DNA of 64,000 bases, from assembly GCA_021802055.1 (NCBI GenBank), contig JAKAAY010000008.1, forward strand, positions 1 through 64,000. Reading direction: 5' to 3'. Under the pieces are notes generated by a model. The model was not told where the DNA came from. It worked only from the letters and a program-made list of their open reading frames with translations, and searched no databases. Position 1 is the stretch's first letter. The number at the start of each line of letters is the position of its first letter. The translations under genes and the position numbers were made by a program. Shown piece after piece: positions 10,100 through 24,197 of this stretch. This DNA comes from Thermoplasmata archaeon. Lineage in GTDB: Archaea; Thermoplasmatota; Thermoplasmata; Thermoplasmatales; Thermoplasmataceae.

Positions 10100-11179
10100 T
10101 CACGAAATGTAATCAATCTCATCGCCAGATGAGTCGTCTCTCCCCTTGGCGATCCGTGAATTCACTCCGCCCACGACCAGCATTACCTGCACCTTACCCC
10201 GGAGTGCGTCGTCCAGCCTGGTTCCAAGCTTGATTCTGGCACCCTTGGCTACCAGTTTCTTTACCTCCTCAACAACGCTTGGAGCTTCCTGAACGTCCAT
10301 ATCATCTCCGCCCGTCACATTGACTATGACTCCGGTGGACGTCGAAAGATCCACGTCGAGAAACGGGGAATCAATGGCCTGTTTGAGGGCTTCAAGGTGC
10401 CTGGTACCATGTGCCGCATCTGAGATGCCAATCCCTATCATGGCTTCCTTGGAATTGGTTATAACCTCCCGGAGATCATTGAAGTCCAGGTTCATGAATC
10501 CGGTTTTGGTTACAATCTCCGTAACTGCCATGACGGCCTTTGCTGCGATCTCGTCCACAATCTGGAATCCTTTTTCCAGTGGCAGGTCTTTTGCAACCTC
10601 TTCGAGTTTGTCGTTTGGTATGATGATGACTGAATCAGCAGCCTCCTTAAGCTTCCTGAGGCCTATGAGGGCCACCTTTCGCTTATTCTTTCCTTCCATT
10701 TCAAATGGCATGGTTGCAATGGCGATGGTCAGGGCGCCATGTTCCTTGAGCATCCTGCACACTACGGGTGAGGCGCCGGTTCCGGTCCCGCCCCCGAGTG
10801 TTGTGGTTACGAACGCGATTTCAGTCCCTCTTGCGTAGTTGACAATCTCCTGCTCAGATTCCATGGCAGAGGCTTCACCGACTCTCGGGTCTCCTCCACT
10901 TCCAAGACCGCGTGTAAGGTTCTCGCCGAGCAGTATCTTGTTGTGAGCTTTTGTTTTTCTAAGGTGCCTGGCATCGGTGTTAAGGGCTATGAGATCAATC
11001 CCCTGGATGTGCTTGCTGAAGAGCCTGGTCACAGTATTGCTTCCTCCTCCACCTACCCCAAATACCTTGATTAGGGACTTCGTTCTCTCTGCGAACTGTT
11101 TGATCTCCTCTTCGGAAGTCCCGAACTGGCCCCAGGCGTCTTCTCCATCTGGAGAAAACTGGTCTCCATCAGTATTCAT
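10100..11179 (-). CDS. ftsZ: Cell division GTPase FtsZ
   Basis: 359 residues from the ATG at 11179 (a longer frame starts at 11191). All FtsZ signatures are present: glycine-rich T1 VGGGGSNTV near residues 42-50, T2 NTDARHL, T3 RGLGSGGDP, tubulin signature GGGTGTGASP near 129-138, T5 MPFEMEGKNKR, T6 PNDKL, and the catalytic T7 loop NLDFNDLREV. The protein polymerises with GTP to form the division ring at mid-cell. The N-terminal extension is acidic; the C-terminus ends after the core domain without a long linker. The TATA box at 11201-11210 lies 26 nt from the ATG at 11179, the reason for that start. A second, much shorter FtsZ-like gene lies at 31836-32633. Confidence 0.97.
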   Translation of the reverse strand: MNTDGDQFSPDGEDAWGQFGTSEEEIKQFAERTKSLIKVFGVGGGGSNTVTRLFSKHIQGIDLIALNTDARHLRKTKAHNKILLGENLTRGLGSGGDPRVGEASAMESEQEIVNYARGTEIAFVTTTLGGGTGTGASPVVCRMLKEHGALTIAIATMPFEMEGKNKRKVALIGLRKLKEAADSVIIIPNDKLEEVAKDLPLEKGFQIVDEIAAKAVMAVTEIVTKTGFMNLDFNDLREVITNSKEAMIGIGISDAAHGTRHLEALKQAIDSPFLDVDLSTSTGVIVNVTGGDDMDVQEAPSVVEEVKKLVAKGARIKLGTRLDDALRGKVQVMLVVGGVNSRIAKGRDDSSGDEIDYIS

Positions 11180-11200
11180 TCCCCGTTTCATGGCAAATCA

Positions 11201-11237: not shown

Positions 11238-12431
11238 TTACCTGGTCAACCATGAACCCTGCTTCCAGACAGTCATAAGACCCCAGATATTTGCTACAAG
11301 GAGTATAAGCAATGCAAAGGACCCATAGGCAAACGTCTTGAGACGGTTCACCAGCATGTTCATGGAAACTGCAGCTGCGTAAATCCCAAGACCAATGAAG
11401 TCAAGGATGGTGATGAGGGTGTGTGCCTCGAACCTGGGTCCGAAACGTGTCACCATACCGGGGACAGCTACGAAAGTTTTCACGAATCTCTCGAAGAGGA
11501 TTGAGAAACTCAGGGGTGCATTGTGAATTATAAACGGCTCCACGAAGAAATAGGACTTTGTCAGCAGGAGGGCCAGAAAACTCAGGGGCAGAACTGAAAT
11601 GAAGAGAAGCTCGAGGGCGTAAAATTTCCCAGATTTCACCAGGGTCCCATCCCTTATGTATCTGAACAGGAAACGCCAGCCAGCCCTTGACCATCTCACC
11701 TGCTGCCTGAAATAGGACCTGTAAGTCTTCTGTGCTCGGGTGCGCACTACAACATTGAAATTCCTCGTAATCCTGTAACCCCTGTTAATGACAACACCTG
11801 TCAGTTGCCTGTCATCACCAAGCTTCCCCGGTCTGCCCAGAAACCTGGGTTCGGTAAAATCGGAAGAAAGGATGAAATCCTTGACAACAGAGGTTCTGAA
11901 CATCATGCAGGCACCATCGAGCGTGAGCGTGTTCCCTCTCTTGGCGGTTGACTTGAGAATCACCTCCCTTGCCCTCTCGGTAAATTCAGCGCTGTATGAT
12001 ACCGGAGTGTTTTCGTTTATGATCTTGATAACACCGCTGACACCTCCCACCCCGGGCGTAAATTTTGACAATAACCCCGGGACAGCATGCTCTGGCAATA
12101 TTGTGTCGCTGTCCACAATAAGCACGAATTCTGTATCGATGAACTGCATCCCGAAAGCTATTGCCTTCCTCTTTCCTCCCCTCTCACTCTTATGGAAAAA
12201 GAGACCCCCATTTTTCTCTGTTATGGCGCGGTATGGTTCCAGCGAGGAATCACCCACTACTATGAATTTCACTCCCTGGGATTTCACGGCCTCAATGGAA
12301 AGGGTGAATTCGTCGGGGTCTTCGTTGTAGACTGCCATCAGAATTGTAACATCTTTCAACAAATGGCTGTTGTCCTCAGTGTCATCGGTATAATAGATGG
12401 AGTCCAGAGAATTAACCAGATAATAGCCCAC
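11238..12431 (-). CDS. Family 2 glycosyltransferase, membrane-bound (hyaluronan/cellulose synthase-like)
   Basis: 397 residues from a GTG at 12431. Seen: the GT2 opening VTILMAVYNEDPDEF near 30, a DSD (VDSDT) nucleotide-sugar/metal motif near 110, GVSGVIKI, and the processive-synthase motif QQVRW near 245, followed by three or four membrane helices at the C-terminus. Family role: transfer of a sugar from a UDP- or GDP-sugar at the inner face of the membrane to a polymer or lipid. The start is uncertain: immediately upstream the same frame encodes a good membrane helix (GWVTIITLVILFITIISIA) but contains no ATG, GTG or TTG before the stop near 12515. Next to surface proteins, so a role in cell-envelope glycosylation is plausible. 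Confidence 0.85.
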   Translation of the reverse strand: MGYYLVNSLDSIYYTDDTEDNSHLLKDVTILMAVYNEDPDEFTLSIEAVKSQGVKFIVVGDSSLEPYRAITEKNGGLFFHKSERGGKRKAIAFGMQFIDTEFVLIVDSDTILPEHAVPGLLSKFTPGVGGVSGVIKIINENTPVSYSAEFTERAREVILKSTAKRGNTLTLDGACMMFRTSVVKDFILSSDFTEPRFLGRPGKLGDDRQLTGVVINRGYRITRNFNVVVRTRAQKTYRSYFRQQVRWSRAGWRFLFRYIRDGTLVKSGKFYALELLFISVLPLSFLALLLTKSYFFVEPFIIHNAPLSFSILFERFVKTFVAVPGMVTRFGPRFEAHTLITILDFIGLGIYAAAVSMNMLVNRLKTFAYGSFALLILLVANIWGLMTVWKQGSWLTR

Positions 12432-12676: not shown

Positions 12677-14779
12677 CTACTCGTTCAGTAGCAGTTGCAG
12701 GTACTGATAACTAAAAGCCTCTATTGCCAGTGGTGTGGTTATCTTTGTTGGAGTGAAGGTGCTGATGATCATGGAGTCCTTAAATACCCTGACTGTTATT
12801 GGCAGCGGGTAGGAGAAACTCCATGTCGTTCCATTTGGATTCGAATTGAAGTGTGCAAACGAATTGTTATATTCCCTGTAAAACGTATAATTCCAGAGCG
12901 CAACTGAAGGTGAGTTTATTGTCACGGATACATTGTTAACGATGATGTCGGTTATATTTGCGGAATATTCAGTGCCCCCGCTCACAAAATTGATCAACTC
13001 TCCGCTTTGCACTTCGGCGCTATTTCTTTGCTGGACCGATCCGGATAACAGATAGTTTCCTGTCTGACTGGTGGAGAAGTATGAGCCGCTAAAGTCAAGG
13101 ACATTGAGGGACAGAGACAGCAAAGCGGAGTTGTGGTTAATTTCACTGATGGAAATAGGTGTGCCTGTAAGAGACTGACCGAAGGAGTTACCTGAATACA
13201 TTTCGGTTACAAAGCCGTCCTGGATACTGATATATTGGGACGGTATGAACGAGTTTGGAGCGAAGGAGCTTATTTCACCGTTGCCCTTGAGATCGCCAAC
13301 CGGTTTAAACGACTGGCCAAATAAAGAAGATCCTGATGAGAGAACAGTGTCCCCGGATATCACAGTCATAGTACCGGAATTCCAGTTGGGAACGTATATT
13401 GCACCATTCAATGGATCATAAGCAATCGCATTTGGCCCATTACCAGGGCCAGAACCGGAAGGATAGCCAGATATGGTTGTTAAAGGCGCGCCCGTTTTAC
13501 CGTTGATAACCCAGATATTGGAGTTCTGTGTGTCTGCCATGTAGAGCAGATGGTTTGCGCTGTCAAAGACAATTGAAGTCGGTGTATACATATTATAGTA
13601 GGACGGGGGGCAACAGGCACCATAGTCCCCTATTATCTTATTGTTGGTCCCGTTTATAACAATGAGCCCTGGACTGGGAGAACTCGTAGAAGGACAGTCA
13701 TAATAACCAAGATACGATGAAGTGGAGAAAATGTTGCCGTTGGAGGTGTCAAAGGCGAGGCTCCATGGGGTGTTGATGGCAATGGTGCTTACATTTTCAT
13801 CTGTTATGGGATTAACAACCGCCACCACTGTTCCCAGAGCAACATATACGTACCCGTTTGCAGGATCATAGGAAATGCTTGAAGGGATGGTGTTGCTGCC
13901 AGGCTTGGCAAGCTGAATGAAACCGGATTCTGCATAGGTTGAAACGTTCAGGGAAACAACCGCCCCTCCTCCACTGATTGAGAGGGGATATGAAATTGTA
14001 AACATAACCTCATTGAGATACGGAACATAGGTGATGTCGTATGGCAGGGAAGAATAGTTCAGCGTCTTGACGACGGAGAGTGAGCTTCCGCTTATGACCT
14101 GGATACTGCCATTGTTGAAAGAGGTGTCACCACTCTGTAAGGTGAGTGTTGAAAGATTTCCTTCTGTTATGAAAATCAGGTTATCCTTTGAATCAAAGGT
14201 GATGCCGGTTGGGTACCCAATCAGGGGAATGGACTTCACTGGCGCATTATCAGCGCCGCTTATCACCGTGACGTTTCCGGGATCAAGATGACCGTACAAC
14301 ACATTGGTGTAGTTTGAATTAACTTCAAAAATAAGGTTGTTCACAGTGTCAACCGCAACAGCGTCTGGGTTCTGCCCGACTTTGACCTCGCCCACAATCT
14401 TATTGCTGAGCTGATTCACTGGTGTGTTCCCGCTATAGGATATACCTACGCTTACATCATATTTAATGGAAATGTTGAAATTGCTTGAATAGGAAAGCGA
14501 AGTTTGTTGTGGATTTGTGAAGAAAGCCCCCTGAATGCCCATGGGAAACGTCTGGCTCACAGTCGAACCGTTTTGCAGGCTACTTGAAGAGAGCTGGCTT
14601 GCAAACGATGAAAAGGCCTGCTGGTCAGAGGACACAAACTGGTTTTCGTATTGCTGGCCGGTATACGGTATGTACCATATGACCAACCCCGACACTATGG
14701 ATGCGGTAATACTGAAAATGAGCAGCATTCCAATGATCTCTGATACTGCATCATCGCTACGCTCCCTCGGTCTTCTCAT
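12677..14779 (-). CDS. Surface protein: pilin-like N-terminus with inserted beta-propeller
   Basis: 700 residues. The N-terminus (residues 8-40: SDDAVSEIIGMLLIFSITAS then a hydrophobic run ending WYIP) matches the archaeal type IV pilin N-terminal pattern: short basic/acidic head, conserved Gly, hydrophobic helix. A beta-type domain with the marker TFPMGIQG follows. From about residue 120 to 480 there are repeated YVTN-like propeller blades (for example GQNPDAVAVDTVNNLIFEVN, GNGPNAIAYDPLNGAIYVPN). The C-terminal part (about 500-700) resembles those of its two neighbours. It lies 10 bases after the upstream gene. A Shine-Dalgarno-like GGAGGTG, formed by the end of the upstream gene, precedes the ATG by 13 nt, so it is probably translated from a shared mRNA. 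Likely membrane-anchored on the cell surface; ligand unknown. Confidence 0.8.
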   Translation of the reverse strand: MRRPRERSDDAVSEIIGMLLIFSITASIVSGLVIWYIPYTGQQYENQFVSSDQQAFSSFASQLSSSSLQNGSTVSQTFPMGIQGAFFTNPQQTSLSYSSNFNISIKYDVSVGISYSGNTPVNQLSNKIVGEVKVGQNPDAVAVDTVNNLIFEVNSNYTNVLYGHLDPGNVTVISGADNAPVKSIPLIGYPTGITFDSKDNLIFITEGNLSTLTLQSGDTSFNNGSIQVISGSSLSVVKTLNYSSLPYDITYVPYLNEVMFTISYPLSISGGGAVVSLNVSTYAESGFIQLAKPGSNTIPSSISYDPANGYVYVALGTVVAVVNPITDENVSTIAINTPWSLAFDTSNGNIFSTSSYLGYYDCPSTSSPSPGLIVINGTNNKIIGDYGACCPPSYYNMYTPTSIVFDSANHLLYMADTQNSNIWVINGKTGAPLTTISGYPSGSGPGNGPNAIAYDPLNGAIYVPNWNSGTMTVISGDTVLSSGSSLFGQSFKPVGDLKGNGEISSFAPNSFIPSQYISIQDGFVTEMYSGNSFGQSLTGTPISISEINHNSALLSLSLNVLDFSGSYFSTSQTGNYLLSGSVQQRNSAEVQSGELINFVSGGTEYSANITDIIVNNVSVTINSPSVALWNYTFYREYNNSFAHFNSNPNGTTWSFSYPLPITVRVFKDSMIISTFTPTKITTPLAIEAFSYQYLQLLLNE

Positions 14780-14788
14780 TTTGTCCGC

Positions 14789-17700
14789 TTACACCTCCTC
14801 CACGTCTGCATCCAGATACTCGATGCTTACAGAAAATGCAGTGATGACCTTGTATGAATGAATAGTAATGGTGGTGTTAGTGGCATCAACGGCAAACGGC
14901 TCATTGTGGAAGTGCCACGACATGGGTGTGTTGAGATTTGTGCTGTTGTACTGTTTGTAGAGCAGAGAGTTAATTTCCTGAGTATACTGGGAATGTATAG
15001 TGTATGTGAGACCAAAGAGATAAAGTCCGGTAATCATAGCCGGGTACCCGTTCCCATAAAGGTCGTAATAGGTGAATCTTTCCCCGAGATAGTACTGGTC
15101 CTTTACAACCTTACTGAGGTTCAGGACGATGGCACTGGTCCCTGTCCCGGTAGTTGATGAGTCTGGGCCAACAAGATTAATGAGGAATGCCGAGACAGAT
15201 ACATTACCGCTGTTGTTCGCAACTGATACTGGAATGTTGGCTGAGGAAACTACAAATTTGGATGACGAGTAGTTTGACAGAACCATGTTGTCCTGAACAT
15301 GGAAAGCAACAGACGGAACATAGGCGGTATTTCCATACGAAACGAACTGGCCGCTACCCTCCAGGCTATTCGATATGTACTTTCCAGTGTTATTGTTGAA
15401 GTATATGCTTCCGCCGTTGATCACCGTGACCTGGTTGGATACCTGGTCGGCAACATATATCAGACCGTCTTCAGGGTCGTATAATATGGATGAGGGCGAG
15501 AGACCGGTGGCTATGTTTGATATGGTATACCCCGTGAAGGTGTTGTTGAGCGTGACGTTATTAGAACCGTCGTTAGAAATGTACAGGTAACCATTGCCCT
15601 GATCGAAGGCGAGACCTGAAGGATTAGCGGTGGAGCCCACTGAAAATCCTCCTACATTGAGACTATTCAGCGAAATGGTAGAAACATTGTGGCTCCCGCT
15701 GTTCGCAATAAACAGTGTATTGGACGCTGGATCGTAAGATACAGCTTCCGGTTCATTGCCAACATGGAATGTCTGAACTACAACTCCGCGGGTGAGATTT
15801 ACCTCCATTACGCTGTTGCTCAAAAATCCTGAAACGAAGAGGGTGCCGCTAGGGGTGAACGCCCCGGAAATGGGACCGGTATTTGCAGGGAGGCTTATCA
15901 CATTGGTCGATAGAATTGTGCCGTTAATCTCAAAAATAGAACTTGTATTTGTGGCCAGGACATATACCGTTCCGTTGAGAGGATCCACAGCAGCGAAATT
16001 GGGTCTTGGAACTACGCCTCCGACCGATGGGATTGATACATTGGCAACAGATTTTCCCAAGGTCGGCGAGACCACCGTCACATTATTGGTTCCATTATTT
16101 GCTGCATAGAGAAATCCATTCAGACCATCATACGCAACAGACGTTACATTCCCACCGACCTGTAACTGGGATACCACGGACTGGGTGACAGGGTTTATCA
16201 TCGCTATGTTATCCGAAAATGCGTTTGCAACTGCAATCTCATTCAGGCTGCTGTCGTAGGCCTCAGACGATGGGGAATTGAATGGGCTGTTCCATATGTA
16301 TTCTGCGTTGATATGGCCAGTGAGGTTGGAAAGGATCGCAATGTTGTTACTCTGGTTATCTATCACAACGAGCGCTCCTCCACCCTTGAAAACAGACAAC
16401 GGGATGTACAGCATATCAACTGGTCCGCTCATAAATCCCGATTCCCCGCCCATGTTGTAGGAGCCAGAAGCATTAAAGGGAGAGGACGTCAGAGAGTTGG
16501 AGACGTTCGTTGAATTTAAGGCAACGATGTCCGAGTATAAGAATTGCCCGCTGGTGTTGTAAGACTGGTTATAGCCTCCAACATAGACATTGGGGTTTGA
16601 TTCGGTTAGAGGCCCAGGGCTGAGAGCGGCCGGGGTACCGGTGGGTATGGAAATGTTCACAATGAAGGGCGGCGCACCTGTTGAAGGGACAATGCAGGAA
16701 AACACAGATAAATTGCCTACCAGAGCGTGCTTATTCCCTTTATGACGGCCATGGTTAGGATGGTGGTTCGGTACGGGGTGGTTGTAAAGGAGGCCATAGG
16801 AGTTAGTCACATACACGTTGCCTGAAGCAGAAGTAAGGGCGAACGGGTGATTTACGTAAGTCTTACCGTTTCCTGCATTAAAGTAGACAGGAATGGCAGG
16901 TGAAGAAAGGTTAAGCAAGGTGAGATCACTCTGGTAATATTCTGTCATCCAAATGTAGGTATATCCTCCCGAAGACGTTTCCAACAGTGCAGAAGGGGGT
17001 GGATTAGCTGTGCCGGTATTATTTGCGGCCTTAGTGGTGTCACTGAATTGAAATGCAACATTAATGCTGTTATAATTTGAAAGGCTGATGCTTACGAGCT
17101 GTGGGAGATACTTCGTACCATGATTGTATACGTCAGCGACATAAAGTTCTCCGTTGACGCATATGATGTTACTGGGATAGAGCAAATTCCCATTATTTCC
17201 CTTCGAGTCAATAGTATATGCTATGGAATGTGTCTGCGGGTTGAATACGCTTATGGTGGAATATCCATCAGCAAGGCTCGCAGAATAGAATCTGAAGAAG
17301 TTGGTAATGTACAGGTAGCCCTGTGCATAGGTTATCCCGTACGGGTTCATGCCTACATAGTATTCTCCCAGGACCTTTCCTGTGGTCAGGTTAATCACAG
17401 AAACCGCATTTGCAGAATAATCTGTAACGTAGAGGTTCCCGTTGAGTGGGTCATACGCAGCGGAGGTGGGCACTCTGCCGTTGATAGTTGGAAAAGAGCC
17501 TACCACCTTATTGCTTATGGCCGTTGGAACGGTGTTCTCCAGAAGCTTGTAGTTTAATCCCACCTGGTAACTCAGAGTGGCGTTAAAGCCGGAATTCGAG
17601 AAGCAAACCTGGCTCTGAATGGAAGGCGTGATTATGGAACCCTGGATCCCCATTGGAATTCCCTGGGAAATGATCTGGCCAGAACTTATGTACGGATCCT

Positions 17701-17878
17701 CAAGCTGTGAAACGAGAGACGCAAGTGCTCGCTGTGAGTTTACCTGGAACTGCTGATCGTATGGGGTCTGGGTGGCAGGGATGTACCAGATTTCAAAGGT
17801 TGAAACTGCAGACACCATAATGGCGAACACGAGCATAGTACCTACAATTTCAGAAACGCTGGAGTCCCTTCGGGACAT
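14789..17878 (-). CDS. Surface protein: pilin-like N-terminus with two stretches of beta-propeller blades
   Basis: 1029 residues from the ATG at 17878; an ATG at 17884 is in frame, but the TATA box lies 27 nt from 17878. The head RRDSSVSEIVGTMLVFAIMV and helix ending WYIP, then IPMGIQG, match the two neighbouring proteins. Between about residues 125 and 830 are many NHL/YVTN-type blades (SAAYDPLNGNLYVTDYSANA, VSYDPASNTLFIANSGSHNV, ILYDPEDGLIYVADQVSNQV). A His/Pro-rich loop (HPVPNHHPNHGRHKGNKH) sits near residue 375. The C-terminal 200 residues resemble the neighbours. Likely exported and membrane-held, with the propellers outside; probable roles are adhesion, carbohydrate binding or envelope structure. 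It appears to be first in a two-gene transcript with the 12677 gene. Confidence 0.8.
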   Translation of the reverse strand: MSRRDSSVSEIVGTMLVFAIMVSAVSTFEIWYIPATQTPYDQQFQVNSQRALASLVSQLEDPYISSGQIISQGIPMGIQGSIITPSIQSQVCFSNSGFNATLSYQVGLNYKLLENTVPTAISNKVVGSFPTINGRVPTSAAYDPLNGNLYVTDYSANAVSVINLTTGKVLGEYYVGMNPYGITYAQGYLYITNFFRFYSASLADGYSTISVFNPQTHSIAYTIDSKGNNGNLLYPSNIICVNGELYVADVYNHGTKYLPQLVSISLSNYNSINVAFQFSDTTKAANNTGTANPPPSALLETSSGGYTYIWMTEYYQSDLTLLNLSSPAIPVYFNAGNGKTYVNHPFALTSASGNVYVTNSYGLLYNHPVPNHHPNHGRHKGNKHALVGNLSVFSCIVPSTGAPPFIVNISIPTGTPAALSPGPLTESNPNVYVGGYNQSYNTSGQFLYSDIVALNSTNVSNSLTSSPFNASGSYNMGGESGFMSGPVDMLYIPLSVFKGGGALVVIDNQSNNIAILSNLTGHINAEYIWNSPFNSPSSEAYDSSLNEIAVANAFSDNIAMINPVTQSVVSQLQVGGNVTSVAYDGLNGFLYAANNGTNNVTVVSPTLGKSVANVSIPSVGGVVPRPNFAAVDPLNGTVYVLATNTSSIFEINGTILSTNVISLPANTGPISGAFTPSGTLFVSGFLSNSVMEVNLTRGVVVQTFHVGNEPEAVSYDPASNTLFIANSGSHNVSTISLNSLNVGGFSVGSTANPSGLAFDQGNGYLYISNDGSNNVTLNNTFTGYTISNIATGLSPSSILYDPEDGLIYVADQVSNQVTVINGGSIYFNNNTGKYISNSLEGSGQFVSYGNTAYVPSVAFHVQDNMVLSNYSSSKFVVSSANIPVSVANNSGNVSVSAFLINLVGPDSSTTGTGTSAIVLNLSKVVKDQYYLGERFTYYDLYGNGYPAMITGLYLFGLTYTIHSQYTQEINSLLYKQYNSTNLNTPMSWHFHNEPFAVDATNTTITIHSYKVITAFSVSIEYLDADVEEV

Positions 17879-17898
17879 GATCATTGTAATGAAGATTT

Positions 17899-17910
17899 GA
17901 TTTTAAACTT
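17899..17910 (-). promoter_or_regulatory. TATA box for the two propeller-bearing surface genes
   Basis: Minus-strand AAGTTTAAAATC, centred about 27 nt upstream of the ATG at 17878 and 21 nt upstream of the ATG at 17884. It starts a transcription unit separate from the genes above 17978. Confidence 0.55.
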
Positions 17911-17977
17911 TTAGTAAACCTCATCTTCATTTCGATGTCATGAGCATGTTATTAGCTGGACCCAGAAACATTCAAGA

Positions 17978-18961
17978 CTAGAGTTCCAGAAGGTTGAGGT
18001 TGAACTCGTTTAAATTCACTGAATAAAGATAGATGACCCCGGTATTGCTGATGGAGAAGGTCTGATTCTTGTAACCAGCCTCCAATGGGAATTGAGAGAA
18101 CATCCATTTAACTCCGACCTTGTTATTACCGGTAATCGATGTCTGCAGCCCGTAGCGCTCCTCCAGGGTTGAGTTCCATGATGAGGCTGCAGGAGAAGTG
18201 ATGTTGGTGTGAAAGGAGGTGAGCGTTATATTGGTCACAACAGCCGGTGTGTATCCTCCAATGTCTGGGTTATATATTGTTACATTCTCACCGTCAAAGT
18301 AGTCGTTCTCGTTTACCATGGAATATTGAAGAGTCACTATGGTTGCCCCGTATCCCCCAAACGATGTATTTTTCCCATATACTCCAAACTCTGATGCCTG
18401 AAGGACTCTCCCGGTGGAGTTTTTGTAAAAGCTAAGCGGAAGCGTTCCCACAAACTGGCTGTAATTTGAACCGGACTGCCTCACGGATATAGTGTCGCCC
18501 GTAAAGCAGAATTTCTCAGGCGTTATGAATGGTGTTGAAGTGAAGGTCTCTATGACTCCAGAACTATTAGATGATTTGTGGAAGTTGTATACATGCTGCG
18601 AACCTCCATAGCTGAATGTGACGTACATGTTGTATGACATGTTTATCCTGTAAGCTGTGGAATTGATGTACTGGATCAGGGTATTGGAATTTCCCGAAAA
18701 TGGCGGTGTACCCTGTATCCCTATGGGAAAGCTTTGTACGACAAACTGGTTAGGATAGGCAGTACCATTTCCCAGTTCGTTCTGCAGCTGTACAAAAGAG
18801 TTCTCAGTTTCAGCCACGAATTTCAGGTCATTGCTCTGTCCATTTGACGGTATGTACCAAAGAATGAAAGCGCTCACCAGCGAGACGACTATTACAAAGG
18901 TAAGCAGTGTGCCAATGACCACTGCAACTGAATCATCCCTATCTTTCGTTATAGGGTGCAT
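17978..18961 (-). CDS. Pilin-like surface protein without propeller
   Basis: 327 residues from the ATG at 18961. The frame extends to 19042, overlapping the upstream stop, but MHPITKDRDDSVAVVIGTLL gives the short charged head expected before the hydrophobic helix (ending ILWYIP). The marker SFPIGIQG follows the helix as in the neighbours (TFPMGIQG, IPMGIQG), and the C-terminal part also resembles theirs, but no propeller blades are present. It therefore looks like the bare scaffold into which the blades of the other two were inserted. Many N-x-S/T sequons are seen, suggesting N-glycosylation on the outside. It lies directly downstream of the 1207-residue repeat protein and is probably in its transcript. 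Confidence 0.72.
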   Translation of the reverse strand: MHPITKDRDDSVAVVIGTLLTFVIVVSLVSAFILWYIPSNGQSNDLKFVAETENSFVQLQNELGNGTAYPNQFVVQSFPIGIQGTPPFSGNSNTLIQYINSTAYRINMSYNMYVTFSYGGSQHVYNFHKSSNSSGVIETFTSTPFITPEKFCFTGDTISVRQSGSNYSQFVGTLPLSFYKNSTGRVLQASEFGVYGKNTSFGGYGATIVTLQYSMVNENDYFDGENVTIYNPDIGGYTPAVVTNITLTSFHTNITSPAASSWNSTLEERYGLQTSITGNNKVGVKWMFSQFPLEAGYKNQTFSISNTGVIYLYSVNLNEFNLNLLEL

Positions 18962-19038
18962 GTATTGCACCTTCGTGTGGAATTTGCGTCGGCCTGTTTC
19001 CTCTTTTCCACTACCTGTAGCAGGATGTACCCTGAATA

Positions 19039-22000
19039 TCATTCCTCCTTCCTTCTTTTCCTCATTACATAGACACCGGCAGCTGCGACGCCTGCAATGG
19101 CTATGACTCCAATTATGAGATACAGCTCAGTTGGCGTAATGAGTGGGGCCTTCGACGGAGTTGGGGTAGGTGCAGGGGGAGGCGGTGGTGGGACGTTCTT
19201 GGCGAAGCTGACCGGTATTGTCACGCTGGTACCGTTGACCAGCAGCGTGCCAGTGCTCACAGATGTGATGTGGTAGCCCGAGGTGTTGTATATCACATAG
19301 GCATAGGTTCCGTTTGGCACGGTGAAATTATTCCATATCAGCGTTGAAGTCGAATTCTCTCCATTGAGGTTAACAGTCCAGCTTGTGTTTGTCGGGAGAC
19401 CAGTCTCCTTGAATGAGACAGTATATACCACTTCAGTAAAATTGAGCAGGACAACCTTGCCTGTCCCCTTCAGGGTGAAAGTTCCACCTGGTGGCGCTCT
19501 CCATGTCAGGTTAGTTGAGTATGGAGCATACAGATAGGTGCCATTGGGGAGATTAAAAGTAGTTGAGTTGACAGTGTAAGTGGCATTTGAAAAATTGTAT
19601 TGTCCCCGGAGTACCAGTCCCCATTTAAATCCCGTAGGAAGGCCGTTTTCCTTGAATGTTACCTTGTTCATAAAGGCGTAGAAAGATATATTAATTGTTT
19701 GGCTCGTACCGCTGACTTTTACCGAGCCGGAATAAGGCGTCGGAGTGAACTCGTCATATTTTGATATTGTGTATGAATAAGTGCCATTCTGGACCACTAT
19801 GGAAATTTGCGTAGAGTTGGTCGAATAAATCTTGCCAGCAAAGGTAAGTGACCACAGGGAGCCAACTGGCAGGCCGCTTTCCTCAAACAACACATGATAG
19901 ACAAAGTCCTCGAATACTATGCTGATCGTCATGTTGGAGCCGGAAATGTTGAAGAATCCTCCGGAGGGGGAAGGAAAATAGGTGAACACGTTAACCGCTG
20001 TTTCCAGATAGTAAGAGTAGGTTCCGTTGCCAAGCAGTATGGAAATGGACGCTGACGAGGAAGAGTAGATCTTGCCGCCAAGTATAAAGTTCCAGGTAGT
20101 TCCGGGCGGTAAACCGACGCTGTTTACTGTTAACACATGGCTGTAATTATAGAAGGTAATGTTCTCTGTAAAACTGGCTCCTTTCACAGTCACGAATCCG
20201 GATGATTCCCTGGCTGCAAATGGGAACGAGGTCTGTACCGTAAAGTAGTATGTCCCGTTTGGAAGGTTGAATGAAACTGCCTGGAAACCTCCGGAATTCT
20301 CACTGATTCCGTTCAATATCACCTGGAAGCTCTGTCCAAGGGGAAGACCGGTTTCGGAGAACGTAACCTGACGGAGTGTGCTGTGGAAAATCAAAGTCCT
20401 GCTAGCGGAAGAATCAAGCCAGACAAATCCCCCAGAATTATATGAAAGGTAAGTCGAGCCAGTCTTATAGGCAGACTGATAATAATATGTGCCGTTTGGG
20501 ACCTGGAACGTAATGGGTTCGAATGCATTGCCTGTTTCGCTCCTCGATACCGTACCGTTAGTCAGATTCACGCTCCACGCGGCTGAGGATGGCAATCCTG
20601 TTTCATAGAAAGTAAGGGTTTCAAGCGCTCTTACGAAGAGGATGGTGGACGAGGGAGATATGACACGACTGGAATTATTTACATATATCGACCCTTCAGG
20701 CGAAAATGGTCTGAAGCCTGCAGGCATACCCACCTGATAATAATATAGCCCGTTTGACAGATTTATAATGCTGCTGTCTTCGTACAGGCTCGTGTAAGCT
20801 TTAAACGTCCCGTTGGGATAATAAAGGCTCACGCTCCAGCTGGTGCCAGCGGGCAAGCCACTCTCATTAAACTGAATGCTATGAATTTCCTTGACAAACA
20901 CCACCGATATGTTTGTATAATTCACTCCATCCCAATAAACCGTCCCGGAGGAATTTACCACGGGAACATACCCGTCCGTGGAAAAAACGCTGAAGTACAG
21001 CTTGACTGTTACTCCCTTGGTCTGATTGTAATAGATCTCGGAAAAGGACGAACTGAGCAAAGCATGAACTCTGTATGAAGTGTTGTTTAAACCAACAGAC
21101 CACTGAGTGGATGAGGGAAGACCGGTTTCGTAGAAGACCAGGTAGGGAAAAACGTTCTTTCCTGAAGTCGTGTTATAGGAGACCTTAGGCTCATTGGTGT
21201 AATTAAAGGTCACGTGAAATGTTACCGAGCCCTCAGTGTCATTGTTCGAATAGTTGCCCGTGTAGACCGATCCGGTATTTGTGCCGTTCACTCTAAAATC
21301 CGCAACAGGCAGGACAGTGTAGTAAATCTTCTTCGCCACTGCAGGAATAGGCTCCGTAAAATAGATCTCGCTTGAGGAGCTATTTTCAACAACCCCTCCC
21401 ATCTTCACGGCCCATAGGGTGTTCTCAGAATTAAACGAAGGAAGACCGTTCTCGATGAACTCAACTTTAAAGTAATTCGGTACAAAATGGATCAGGACCC
21501 GCTGGGGCTCTCTGTTAAGTTTCAATGTGCCTGTTCCAGAGAAAGAATGAGTCGTGAAATTCTTGGCTGGAATGACAGAATAGGAATATAACCCGTTGGG
21601 CAGGCTAAATTCAATGGATGTTGAATTGGAGAATTGGGTCAGTATTTGGCCCGAGGAGGAGTTGATAAGTGTGACCCCCCACACCGGTGCGTTGCCGTCA
21701 CCAACCGGAAGCCCACTTTCGGTAAAATTCGCAACGTAAAGACCGCTGGCGAAATTCACCCTTTGGTAGTAGTTACCGCCGCTTATGGTGAAAGTTCCGG
21801 TTTCAGGATTGGGTATGTACATTCCAAGCCCGCTTATGGTGTAGGTGTATGTTCCATTGGGCAGGGTAACACCAATGGTAGAATTTATTGAACTTTGCCT
21901 GAAAACAGCATGGGTGGAGTTGACAATGGTAACGTTCCACAAACTGCCTGTACCAGACATAGGCAGTCCCGTTTCATTGAATACTGCCTCATATCGGCTG

Positions 22001-22662
22001 CTTGCAAATGAAAGAGACACCAGAACATTGGCATTGGCAACCGATATGGTTCCTGTCTTGCTCAAAATATAGTAACCGGAAGGAGGGAAAACCGCATAAG
22101 TATAGCTTCCATTCGGGACTGTGAACGAAATGTTCCGTGCCGCAGCCGACTGGGATATTCCGTCAAATGTCACAGACCACAGAGGTATGGTTGTTTCCCC
22201 CGGCACACTTTGAGTTCCCAGTCCTGTTTCATTGAATGTTACGGTGAAAAGCGTGCTGCTGAATACAACGCTTACAAGCACATTCGCCCCCGAAACATTG
22301 ACGCTTCCGGAACCAGGAGTGGCCTGGAAGCCTTGGGATGTGGTGACGTTATAATGGTATGTCCCCTGTGAGACATTGAAGGTAATCTCATCTGTCGATG
22401 ACTTTGAGATTTTTCCGCTGAGATTAACGGTCCATAGCTGACCTGTCGGAGAAGAAGGCAGCCCGCTTTCCCTGAATACCACCTGGTAAATTGAGGTGGA
22501 GTAGGGGGCGTTATCCGTGCCCTGAGTCCCTGCAGGCTTCCCTGTATGAGAGGTTCCTGCGGAAAGGGGGAAAGCAACCTGCAAAATCATCAACAGTATG
22601 ACAGCGCAAACACTGGTTTTCAGTATGATACGAGACTTGTCAGTCAGAAGCGAGTGAACCAT
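19039..22662 (-). CDS. Giant surface protein of 13 'ETGLP' modules with C-terminal membrane anchor
   Basis: 1207 residues from the ATG at 22662, chosen because a TATA box (22691-22698) lies about 32 nt upstream; the frame extends to 22770. An N-terminal hydrophobic export signal (CAVILLMILQVAFPLSAG, residues 16-33) is followed by 13 modules of about 80-95 residues. Each opens with F-x-E-[TSN]-GLP-x(2-8)-W and closes with a strand like LPNGTYxYxV. Then come a Pro-rich spacer (PPPPPAPTPTPSKAP), one membrane helix (LIIGVIAIAGVAAAGVYV) and a basic tail RKRRKEE. The topology is outside-facing repeats held by a C-terminal helix. Many N-x-S/T sites. Similar repeats are known from exported Thermoplasmatales proteins; no enzyme domain is seen. 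Adhesion or S-layer-like structure is inferred. Confidence 0.82.
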   Translation of the reverse strand: MVHSLLTDKSRIILKTSVCAVILLMILQVAFPLSAGTSHTGKPAGTQGTDNAPYSTSIYQVVFRESGLPSSPTGQLWTVNLSGKISKSSTDEITFNVSQGTYHYNVTTSQGFQATPGSGSVNVSGANVLVSVVFSSTLFTVTFNETGLGTQSVPGETTIPLWSVTFDGISQSAAARNISFTVPNGSYTYAVFPPSGYYILSKTGTISVANANVLVSLSFASSRYEAVFNETGLPMSGTGSLWNVTIVNSTHAVFRQSSINSTIGVTLPNGTYTYTISGLGMYIPNPETGTFTISGGNYYQRVNFASGLYVANFTESGLPVGDGNAPVWGVTLINSSSGQILTQFSNSTSIEFSLPNGLYSYSVIPAKNFTTHSFSGTGTLKLNREPQRVLIHFVPNYFKVEFIENGLPSFNSENTLWAVKMGGVVENSSSSEIYFTEPIPAVAKKIYYTVLPVADFRVNGTNTGSVYTGNYSNNDTEGSVTFHVTFNYTNEPKVSYNTTSGKNVFPYLVFYETGLPSSTQWSVGLNNTSYRVHALLSSSFSEIYYNQTKGVTVKLYFSVFSTDGYVPVVNSSGTVYWDGVNYTNISVVFVKEIHSIQFNESGLPAGTSWSVSLYYPNGTFKAYTSLYEDSSIINLSNGLYYYQVGMPAGFRPFSPEGSIYVNNSSRVISPSSTILFVRALETLTFYETGLPSSAAWSVNLTNGTVSRSETGNAFEPITFQVPNGTYYYQSAYKTGSTYLSYNSGGFVWLDSSASRTLIFHSTLRQVTFSETGLPLGQSFQVILNGISENSGGFQAVSFNLPNGTYYFTVQTSFPFAARESSGFVTVKGASFTENITFYNYSHVLTVNSVGLPPGTTWNFILGGKIYSSSSASISILLGNGTYSYYLETAVNVFTYFPSPSGGFFNISGSNMTISIVFEDFVYHVLFEESGLPVGSLWSLTFAGKIYSTNSTQISIVVQNGTYSYTISKYDEFTPTPYSGSVKVSGTSQTINISFYAFMNKVTFKENGLPTGFKWGLVLRGQYNFSNATYTVNSTTFNLPNGTYLYAPYSTNLTWRAPPGGTFTLKGTGKVVLLNFTEVVYTVSFKETGLPTNTSWTVNLNGENSTSTLIWNNFTVPNGTYAYVIYNTSGYHITSVSTGTLLVNGTSVTIPVSFAKNVPPPPPPAPTPTPSKAPLITPTELYLIIGVIAIAGVAAAGVYVMRKRRKEE

Positions 22663-22690
22663 AAACTTGTTCCAATGGTTAGCGGTATTT

Positions 22691-22698
22691 GTATAAAG
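22691..22698 (-). promoter_or_regulatory. TATA box for the giant repeat surface protein
   Basis: Minus-strand CTTTATAC, centred about 32 nt upstream of the ATG at 22662. It lies inside the longest open frame, so it argues against starts further upstream. Confidence 0.55.
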
Positions 22699-22798
22699 TA
22701 TTTTTCCGATCAAGAATGGCATGGTCACTGACGTGCAACAAACTGGTACGGTCAAGCGGGTTGTATCCATGATCAGGGGATAAGATGGATGACAACAG

Positions 22799-22805: not shown

Positions 22806-22826
22806 CCCAGACGTTATGGAGTGCTG

Positions 22827-24197
22827 TTGATAGTATCGCCGTTGGATTACAGATACGGAAGGGATAACGCGAAGGAAATATTCACAGAGGCATACCGGGT
22901 AAAGAGCATGCTGGAGGTGGAATCTGCATCTTCCATTGCTCTGGCAGCGCATGGGAAAATCCCCCGGGAAGCGTCAGCCGATATCGTGCGAGCATGCAGG
23001 GGCAATCACGTACAGCTTCAGAGAATCAAGGAATTGGAGAAGGAGACTCAGCACGATATAATGGCTCTTACCAGGGCTATTTCTGAACAGGTTAGTGCGG
23101 GCAAACCCTACGTTCACTTTGGGCTGACTTCAAACGACGTCAATGATACGGCTCTTTCCCTCCAGATAAAGGCATTCTCCAGAATAATGGCAGAAGATCT
23201 GCTGCTCGTTATGGCAGAACTTGAAGAGCTGATTAGAAAATATTCAGGCTCTGTAATGCTCGGAAGAACCCATGGACAACATGCCAGCCCCATTACATTT
23301 GGCCTTAAGATGGCCGTATTCCTTGGGGAATTCACCAGACATGCCGAGAGATTTCTGGACGGCATGCCCCGCGTGCTTGTGGGTAAAATGCTTGGCCCCG
23401 TTGGTACGGGTGCAACCATCGGCGCTGATGCCCTCGAGGTTCAGGAAGAATTTGTCAGTTACCTGGGGTTGGGCAGCGAAATAAATCCATCACAGGTAAC
23501 AGGCAGAGACAGGCTAATCGAGTATCTCTCAGTAATCAACAACATCTCCGTCAGCACGGAAAAACTCTCCACGGAAATTCGGAACCTGCAGCGCCCTGAG
23601 ATAGGTGAGGTCTCTGAATATTTCGAAACAGAGAAGCAGGTTGGATCCAGTTCTATGCCCTCCAAGATGAACCCCGTCACCAGCGAGAATATAACGAGTC
23701 TCTCCAGGCTTATCCGATCCTTTATCATCCCCCAGTATGAGGGCTCCATTATGTGGCACGAAAGAGACCTCACCAACAGCGCACTTGAAAGGTTCACCAT
23801 ACCCTACTCCTCAATTCTCATTGACTATGTACTTGCGAAGTTACAGGACGTGCTGAGCAGGCTGGCAATCAATGAACAGAGGATGAAGAAGAACCTAAAC
23901 TCCAGCTATCTCGCGATGTCGGAGTCCCTGGTGCTCATGCTGGTGAATCACGGCATACCCAGACTTGAGGCACACGAGCTCGTCAGACGGGCATCAGTCT
24001 CGACCTCAGAAAGATCCGAACTTGTTGCTGCCATTGTTAAATCTGCCTCCAGCCATGGGGTCTCGGAAAAGGATGTGGAAACTTCCCTGGAGGCGTCCAG
24101 TTTCCTCGGAGCAACTGCGAATATATGCAAAAGCACCCTGGAAAAGTCGGTTATGACAAGAAAGAGGCTTTCAGAATATGCCGGGAGGAAGGATTAG
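22827..24197 (+). CDS. purB: Adenylosuccinate lyase
   Basis: 456 residues. Seen: the opening IVSPLDYRYG, the fumarase-superfamily motifs TSNDVNDTA (about residue 102), GRTHGQHASP (about 147, with the catalytic His) and the signature GSSSMPSKMNP (about 273-283, with the catalytic Ser loop). The enzyme releases fumarate from SAICAR and from adenylosuccinate in purine synthesis; purC lies elsewhere in the window (45752). The start is a TTG at 22827 on family length and TATA spacing; a GTG at 22821 is the alternative. The next gene begins at the base after the stop, so it heads a two-gene operon. Confidence 0.96.
   Translation: MIVSPLDYRYGRDNAKEIFTEAYRVKSMLEVESASSIALAAHGKIPREASADIVRACRGNHVQLQRIKELEKETQHDIMALTRAISEQVSAGKPYVHFGLTSNDVNDTALSLQIKAFSRIMAEDLLLVMAELEELIRKYSGSVMLGRTHGQHASPITFGLKMAVFLGEFTRHAERFLDGMPRVLVGKMLGPVGTGATIGADALEVQEEFVSYLGLGSEINPSQVTGRDRLIEYLSVINNISVSTEKLSTEIRNLQRPEIGEVSEYFETEKQVGSSSMPSKMNPVTSENITSLSRLIRSFIIPQYEGSIMWHERDLTNSALERFTIPYSSILIDYVLAKLQDVLSRLAINEQRMKKNLNSSYLAMSESLVLMLVNHGIPRLEAHELVRRASVSTSERSELVAAIVKSASSHGVSEKDVETSLEASSFLGATANICKSTLEKSVMTRKRLSEYAGRKD

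Follow-up and report, generated by a model that had tools for sequence, protein, structure and literature searches.

Three adjacent minus-strand genes of an acidophilic Thermoplasmata archaeon raise the question of how β-propellers came to lie inside proteins that begin like pilins. The genes lie in a 64,000-nucleotide stretch of DNA analyzed here as a whole (the window; NCBI GenBank assembly GCA_021802055.1, contig JAKAAY010000008.1, positions 1 to 64,000). In order of transcription, by open reading frame (ORF) calls, a 1243-residue GLP-repeat protein is followed by the propeller-less protein C (17978..19042; 354 residues from the first start, or 327 from the likely start at 18961 according to the family alignment), protein B (14789..17884; 1031 residues from a start at 17884, which moves to 17878 if the third codon serves) and protein A (12677..14779; 700 residues). 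C is a pilin-like scaffold; B is this scaffold with a 700-odd-residue all-β insert, and A the same scaffold with an insert of ~386 residues. A first-pass annotation had suggested that propellers were inserted into an existing pilin-like scaffold, and this is now supported by sequence profiles, predicted structures, an insert survey, a tree and synteny. We consider it probable that all three proteins belong to a single Thermoplasmata family of type-IV-pilin-like subunits, with A and B being modular (minor) pilins that display adhesive propellers.

The computations show a scaffold common to all three proteins. The pilin-like head ascribed earlier to A and B (VSEIxG...WYIP) is present in both, as VSEIIG...WYIP and VSEIVG...WYIP, respectively, and reads VAVVIG...WYIP in C. 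Pairwise BLASTP aligned the first ~145 residues of A and B at 39.6% identity (E-value 2e-25), the heads of B and C (7e-15) and those of A and C (1e-17). A second motif, given previously as [TS]F/I-P[MI]GIQG, holds in A (TFPMGIQG) and C (SFPIGIQG), while its [TS] position fails in B (GIPMGIQG). The proposed resemblance of the C-terminal parts to C was also recovered, with B 844–1019 matching C 134–315 (4e-9) and A matching weakly (6e-4). Two scaffold profiles, for the part after the helix and the part after the insert, were built from 21 propeller-less relatives that included no window protein. The post-helix profile matched A 48–115 (1.6e-15) and B 46–113 (2.6e-11). The post-insert profile matched A 501–674 (2.6e-24), within its C-terminal scaffold part (residues 501–700, 12680..13279), and B 845–1029 (4e-29), within the corresponding part (residues 835–1031, 14792..15382). 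Non-scaffold ORFs from the same loci gave E-values above 0.2 with both profiles. When the parts outside the blades are aligned, homology is found on both sides of the insert by BLASTP and profiles alike. A likeness confined to a generic membrane helix was ruled out, since profiles that lack the helix and were built without window proteins still match A and B.

The inserts share one position. We surveyed 47 scaffold proteins matched by both halves of the profile (those of the window, those of every named locus and a selection from the others). The gap between the halves was 15–22 residues in 23 proteins and 348–943 in the remaining 24, all of which have the same insertion point; the halves were cut at the insert point by us, which fixes the position partly by construction, and the full alignment agrees with it, as does an undivided profile (C included) whose matches to A and B likewise break at about position 130. 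In the source genome, inserts span 386–731 residues. The AlphaFold2 model of C (20 sequences; mean predicted local distance difference test score, pLDDT, 87.9; predicted template modeling score, pTM, 0.80) has one continuous 57-residue helix (residues 9–65, 18767..18937) and a β head, in which the strands 105–118 and 121–134 of a hairpin (18560..18649) flank the site that carries the insert in A and B. The model of B (21 sequences; pLDDT 73.9) has a helix at 8–61 (17702..17863), a strand at 91–114, the insert (about residues 115–834, 15383..17542), a strand at 835–851 and then the element order of C to the end. Structure prediction of C and B, a check proposed with the scaffold hypothesis, gave a shared order of helix and β head, and in the B model the insert opens a β-hairpin of the scaffold head.

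YVTN/NHL-type blades had been described as filling the middle of A and B, and Pfam indeed returned propeller families for both and none for C. B matched the YVTN model TIGR02276 at 34.7 bits (cut-off 27.85) and also gave Lactonase and NHL matches; in A, NHL was above the gathering threshold and TIGR02276 below its cut-off. Fold comparison shows the second half of the B insert to be a 7-bladed YVTN/YncE-type propeller (residues 533–827, 15404..16288), with VIA Z-scores of 35.9 against 5c2v_B, a hydrazine synthase chain (287 residues aligned, root-mean-square deviation 2.2 Å), and 35.5 against YncE. The first half is probably a second, divergent propeller. Many stretches of residues 283–535 had pLDDT <50, and a fold search with B listed double-propeller proteins over 700-odd columns (e.g. 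1nr0 and 2ymu), which fits two propellers and is no proof of them. Judged from its sequence, the A insert (about residues 115–500, 13280..14437), which follows the N-terminal scaffold part (residues 2–114, 14438..14776), would form one propeller. Pfam matched no PilC/PilY1-type propeller family to A or B at E ≤1.

Propellers are one of three cargo classes found in the same hairpin, the others being DUF2341-type and GLP-repeat-type. In two genera the protein in the C position carries a DUF2341-like insert (L046 6840–8780 and L042 8656–11682; E-values 0.0037 and 0.007, with scores below the curated cut-off). GLP-type inserts match one another and the 1243-residue neighbor in the window (2.5e-10). 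Among the sequences compared, inserts matched within their class only, and none reached E ≤0.01 against another class. A scaffold tree was computed with the inserts excised (46 rows, one near-duplicate row, L081, being left out). In it B forms one clade (97/97) and A two neighboring groups; the two DUF2341-type proteins pair (100/98) as sister to the C proteins of the arrays (96/89), and three GLP-type proteins fall together (100/100) inside a set with only 82/93 support. Because of these placements and the lack of matches between classes, the simplest reading is that one hairpin gained cargo three times independently. For the propeller insert itself, the single B clade and the two A groups leave us drawing no conclusion between one origin and two.

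Elsewhere in the class, the scaffold is linked to two-ATPase pilus operons. We took 20 loci from among the scaffold matches listed, mostly one per family outside the family of the window. In 15 of them the scaffold gene overlaps a pilus ATPase gene, or lies ≤24 base pairs (bp) from it, on the same strand (14 ATPase 1, one ATPase 2). Adjacency is lacking at L124, where the ORF caller missed the scaffold gene, at L126 and L134, at L139 (a 4-kb contig) and at L142. Four order-level loci outside the window's family, from six such genomes matched, all have the scaffold gene adjacent to machine genes (≤34 bp; one beside TadC), and Pfam confirmed the ATPase (T2SSE, PilB3_C) and TadC (T2SSF) there. 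The source genome encodes a two-ATPase, two-TadC pilus operon on contig C16 and one prepilin peptidase (Peptidase_A24) gene on C10. At that operon (about 78700–84200 of C16 in G000; L061) one TadC carries a long extension at its N-terminus, and an ordinary pilin-like ORF beside it is cut by the contig end.

Within the window's family, occurrence was tallied by hand in 35 genomes (≥90% complete, ≤5% contaminated; genomes of the same genus are not independent). Of the 22 genomes whose ATPase match reached E ≤1e-40, 21 have the scaffold; of the other 13, none does. By genus, scaffold and ATPase each occur in 15 of 19, and the same four genera are without either. Across all 77 family genomes, one (G334, 70% complete) carries a scaffold gene but no ATPase match, and several incomplete ones show the reverse. 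Several genera also have a third pilus-type ATPase, ~35–38% identical to ATPase 1, which gives the best match in genus g6 and points to another pilus system.

The scaffold family is broad. C alone, used as query, matched 31 of 61 genomes, its own included; the alignment-based profile was more sensitive and matched 231 of 300 sampled genomes of class Thermoplasmata, in 75 of 91 genera. Scanning named genomes yielded 20 loci, several apparently on the same contigs as other loci examined, in records named Thermoplasmata, Thermoplasmatales, Thermoplasmatota or Thermoplasma, bar one 'Uncultured archaeon'. A search for the same arrangement in other Thermoplasmata had been suggested, and full C/B/A arrays were found, besides the window, at seven of these 20 loci (L073, L074, L075, L076, L079, L085 and L087) and in G003, with a partial array at a contig end in G005. 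At G010 (apparently the same contig as L077) there is only a plain scaffold protein, with purB, an AMP-binding enzyme, a family-2 glycosyltransferase, FtsZ and transketolase as neighbors. The window has the order purB (adenylosuccinate lyase; 22821..24197, plus strand), GLP protein, C, B, A, family-2 glycosyltransferase (11238..12431, minus strand; Pfam and TIGRFAM-type models) and FtsZ (10100..11191, minus strand; Pfam). As the plain-only locus has the same flanks, its scaffold protein has its positional orthologue in C, with A and B as additions. These results refine the first-pass annotation: the scaffold family spans the class Thermoplasmata and is tied to operons for type IV pili, and its hairpin takes cargo other than propellers.

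The A start lies ~10 bp past the B stop, so the two genes appear to form one unit, and the C start overlaps the end of the GLP-repeat gene (19039..22770, minus strand). Just upstream of B, positions 17884–17978 are AT-rich, with a TTTAAA-like box noted by eye ~25 bases before the ATG; this would fit a leaderless archaeal promoter. In the GLP-repeat surface protein, which is a possible partner, the motif 'F-x-E-T/S-G-L-P' recurs about ten times and a membrane segment lies in the C-terminal part. In other Thermoplasmata families, two long ORFs (L126 2284–8943, 2219 residues, and L134 10132–13033, 967 residues) start with a VSEVIG-type head that resembles the scaffold head over no more than about 40 initial residues; this head may be used by further large surface proteins. 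A 13,409-residue giant with a scaffold head in one relative was discarded because the stretch reads N, making the open frame an artefact.

We hypothesize that C is the plain ancestral form, and that A, with one propeller, and B, probably with two, are paralogues whose hairpin was opened. A prepilin peptidase would cut off a short leader, and the helix would pack in the core of a pilus or pseudopilus made by the two-ATPase/two-TadC machine encoded elsewhere in the genome. C would be the plain partner; B and A would be minor subunits, probably in a terminal position, and would hold the propellers outward. The propellers may be adhesive modules for surfaces, matrix or other cells. Leader processing, polymerization, tip position and binding are inferred by analogy with bacterial modular pilins and with the pili called CdiP in Cuniculiplasma.

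In bacterial modular pilins, bulky modules are adhesive and argued to be tip-located (PMC8179133). The S. sanguinis modular pilins PilB and PilC resemble A and B in having a non-pilus-specific domain built into a pilin for display, with cargo that varies by lineage (PMC8179133). In PilB the module is joined by a short loop (PMC8179133), whereas in A and B it sits inside the head and the scaffold resumes for ~190 residues; the cargo of A and B is, in addition, one or more β-propellers, and the host is archaeal. An extra domain interrupts the β head in GspK of type II secretion and in another pilin, with its module in the β-sheet (PMC8179133). The interrupted β head is shared with A and B, whose scaffold differs in belonging to another pilin family, in its cargo and in having three unrelated cargo classes at one site. 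We take the pilin with a module inserted into its β-sheet to be Thermus ComZ. PilC/PilY1 tip adhesins tie a β-propeller to a type IV pilus, as proposed for A and B, but PilY1 does not belong to the pilins and has a propeller of another family, IPR008707 (PMC8179133).

Among archaeal systems, the Cuniculiplasma CdiP pili are probably adhesive, have two ATPases, a split platform and unexplained hooks at their ends, and have pilin genes remote from the machine, as here (PMC12448462). The C16 operon of the source genome is similar in its two ATPases and split platform, and the order is the same by name. CdiPB, compared by description only, is a 135-residue pilin unlike A and B, and propeller-bearing pilins have no mention in the part of the CdiP account used (PMC12448462). 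The minor pilins of arCOG02911 (250–550 residues) are encoded with an ATPase, a likeness to the scaffold that is by description only (PMC4858521). No inserted modules are mentioned for arCOG02911 in the part of that account used, the main text of which contains neither 'Thermoplasmat' nor 'propeller' (PMC4858521). Makarova et al. 2016 proposed DUF2341 proteins as PilY-like archaeal pilus-tip adhesins (PMC4858521), which fits the DUF2341-type cargo (below cut-off) of two scaffold proteins. The literature searched yielded no archaeal modular pilin, no propeller in a pilin head and no multi-cargo hairpin, although a supplementary dataset of bacterial modular pilins may list a propeller pilin. The earlier remark that the arrangement was not known as a described family agrees with these searches for the propeller in a pilin head; it does not hold for the general idea of a module on or in a pilin, which is known in bacteria (PMC8179133).

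Several results weigh against a pilin identity. No scaffold gene of the window's own family adjoins the machine: these genes are flanked by purB on one side and by the glycosyltransferase and ftsZ genes on the other, and one, in G009, is 6 kb from the machine genes. Five of the 22 genomes counted as having the ATPase, all of genus g6, have only a ~34–35% identical match, and with g6 counted as lacking an ATPase-1 orthologue the scaffold is found in 16 of 17 genomes with it and 5 of 18 without. The B model has a pTM of 0.46 and is patchy in the first insert half. Against solved folds, the scaffold model gave a best Foldseek E-value of 2e-3 (TMq 0.10) and a best VIA Z-score of 2.5, matches that are meaningless and prove neither a new fold nor an absence of relatives. 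A strict FlaFind-like class III peptidase motif occurs in 20 of the 47 surveyed proteins, including A and excluding B and C, both of which have Ser before the predicted cut. Pilin_N (PF07790) had no match at E ≤1 in A, B or C, and it matched 8 of 20 plain (C-type) members at E ≤0.1, weakly (best 3.1e-4); two matches for which bit scores were listed lay below the curated cut-off. Two of the 47 proteins have no recognizable motif core, and DUF7289 reached 18.6 bits in B and 16.4 in A, on the head only and below its cut-off of 27. Consistent with a pilin are the long continuous N-terminal helix and β head of C and B, and the ATPase/TadC machine, which is encoded beside the scaffold at most loci examined outside the window's family and co-occurs with it with exceptions. 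A and B also join a pilin module to a non-pilus domain, as modular pilins do, provided that the scaffold is a true pilin.

The absence of the strict cleavage motif from B and C would suit an uncleaved signal anchor, with A, B, C and the GLP protein forming a disordered, membrane-anchored exterior layer and no pilus. An unordered exterior protein layer has been reported in Thermoplasmatales (PMC12448462), the archaeal surface-layer YVTN propeller 1l0q_A is among the Foldseek matches, and N-x-S/T sequons number 15 in A, 31 in B and 12 in C. The neighbor at 19039..22770 is repeat-rich, and large GLP-repeat ORFs (≥3 motifs) adjoin 7 of 10 propeller-pilin arrays. Such a coat nevertheless appears unlikely to us: the 57-residue continuous helix far exceeds a membrane span, scaffold genes adjoin pilus ATPase genes elsewhere in the class, and within the family the occurrence of the scaffold follows that of the machine. 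The tip position assigned to A and B could also be mistaken if both are structural filament subunits, with propellers as barbs along the shaft. Archaeal pilin β heads face outward and insert-encoded barbs occur on the O. meridianum archaellum (PMC12448462), and the insert site is a hairpin turn that could protrude. Inserts of 386–731 residues seem too bulky for every shaft position, however, and complete arrays always keep a plain C, or a cargo-bearing orthologue in its place, making shaft decoration a decidedly poor prospect. The closest neighbors of the propeller in sequence and fold, among them lactonase, YncE and hydrazine synthase β, could be taken to mean a catalytic or metal/cofactor-binding propeller positioned by the pilin part, in a pseudopilus-like export system or surface enzyme. 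Full-length equivalog models scored A and B far under their cut-offs, and the DUF2341-type and GLP-repeat-type nature of the other cargo fits binding better than a single enzymatic role; we find an enzyme very improbable.

With A and B read as modular pilins, a wider proposal can be made tentatively, as somewhat short of an even chance: Thermoplasmata may dedicate one pilin, encoded at the edge of the two-ATPase operon, to carrying cargo at the tip, its hairpin repeatedly opened for unrelated binding modules (propellers, DUF2341-type and GLP-repeat-type). This would give acidophiles without a surface layer exchangeable adhesive tips and could explain the hooks on Thermoplasmatales pili. The three proteins would provide a concrete archaeal counterpart to the bacterial modular pilins, and one hairpin able to accommodate inserts of 348–943 residues could serve as a display site. 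They are candidates for the adhesiveness of pili or of the surface in acidophiles that lack a surface layer, and the breadth of the family (231 of 300 genomes) makes this testable in culturable members.

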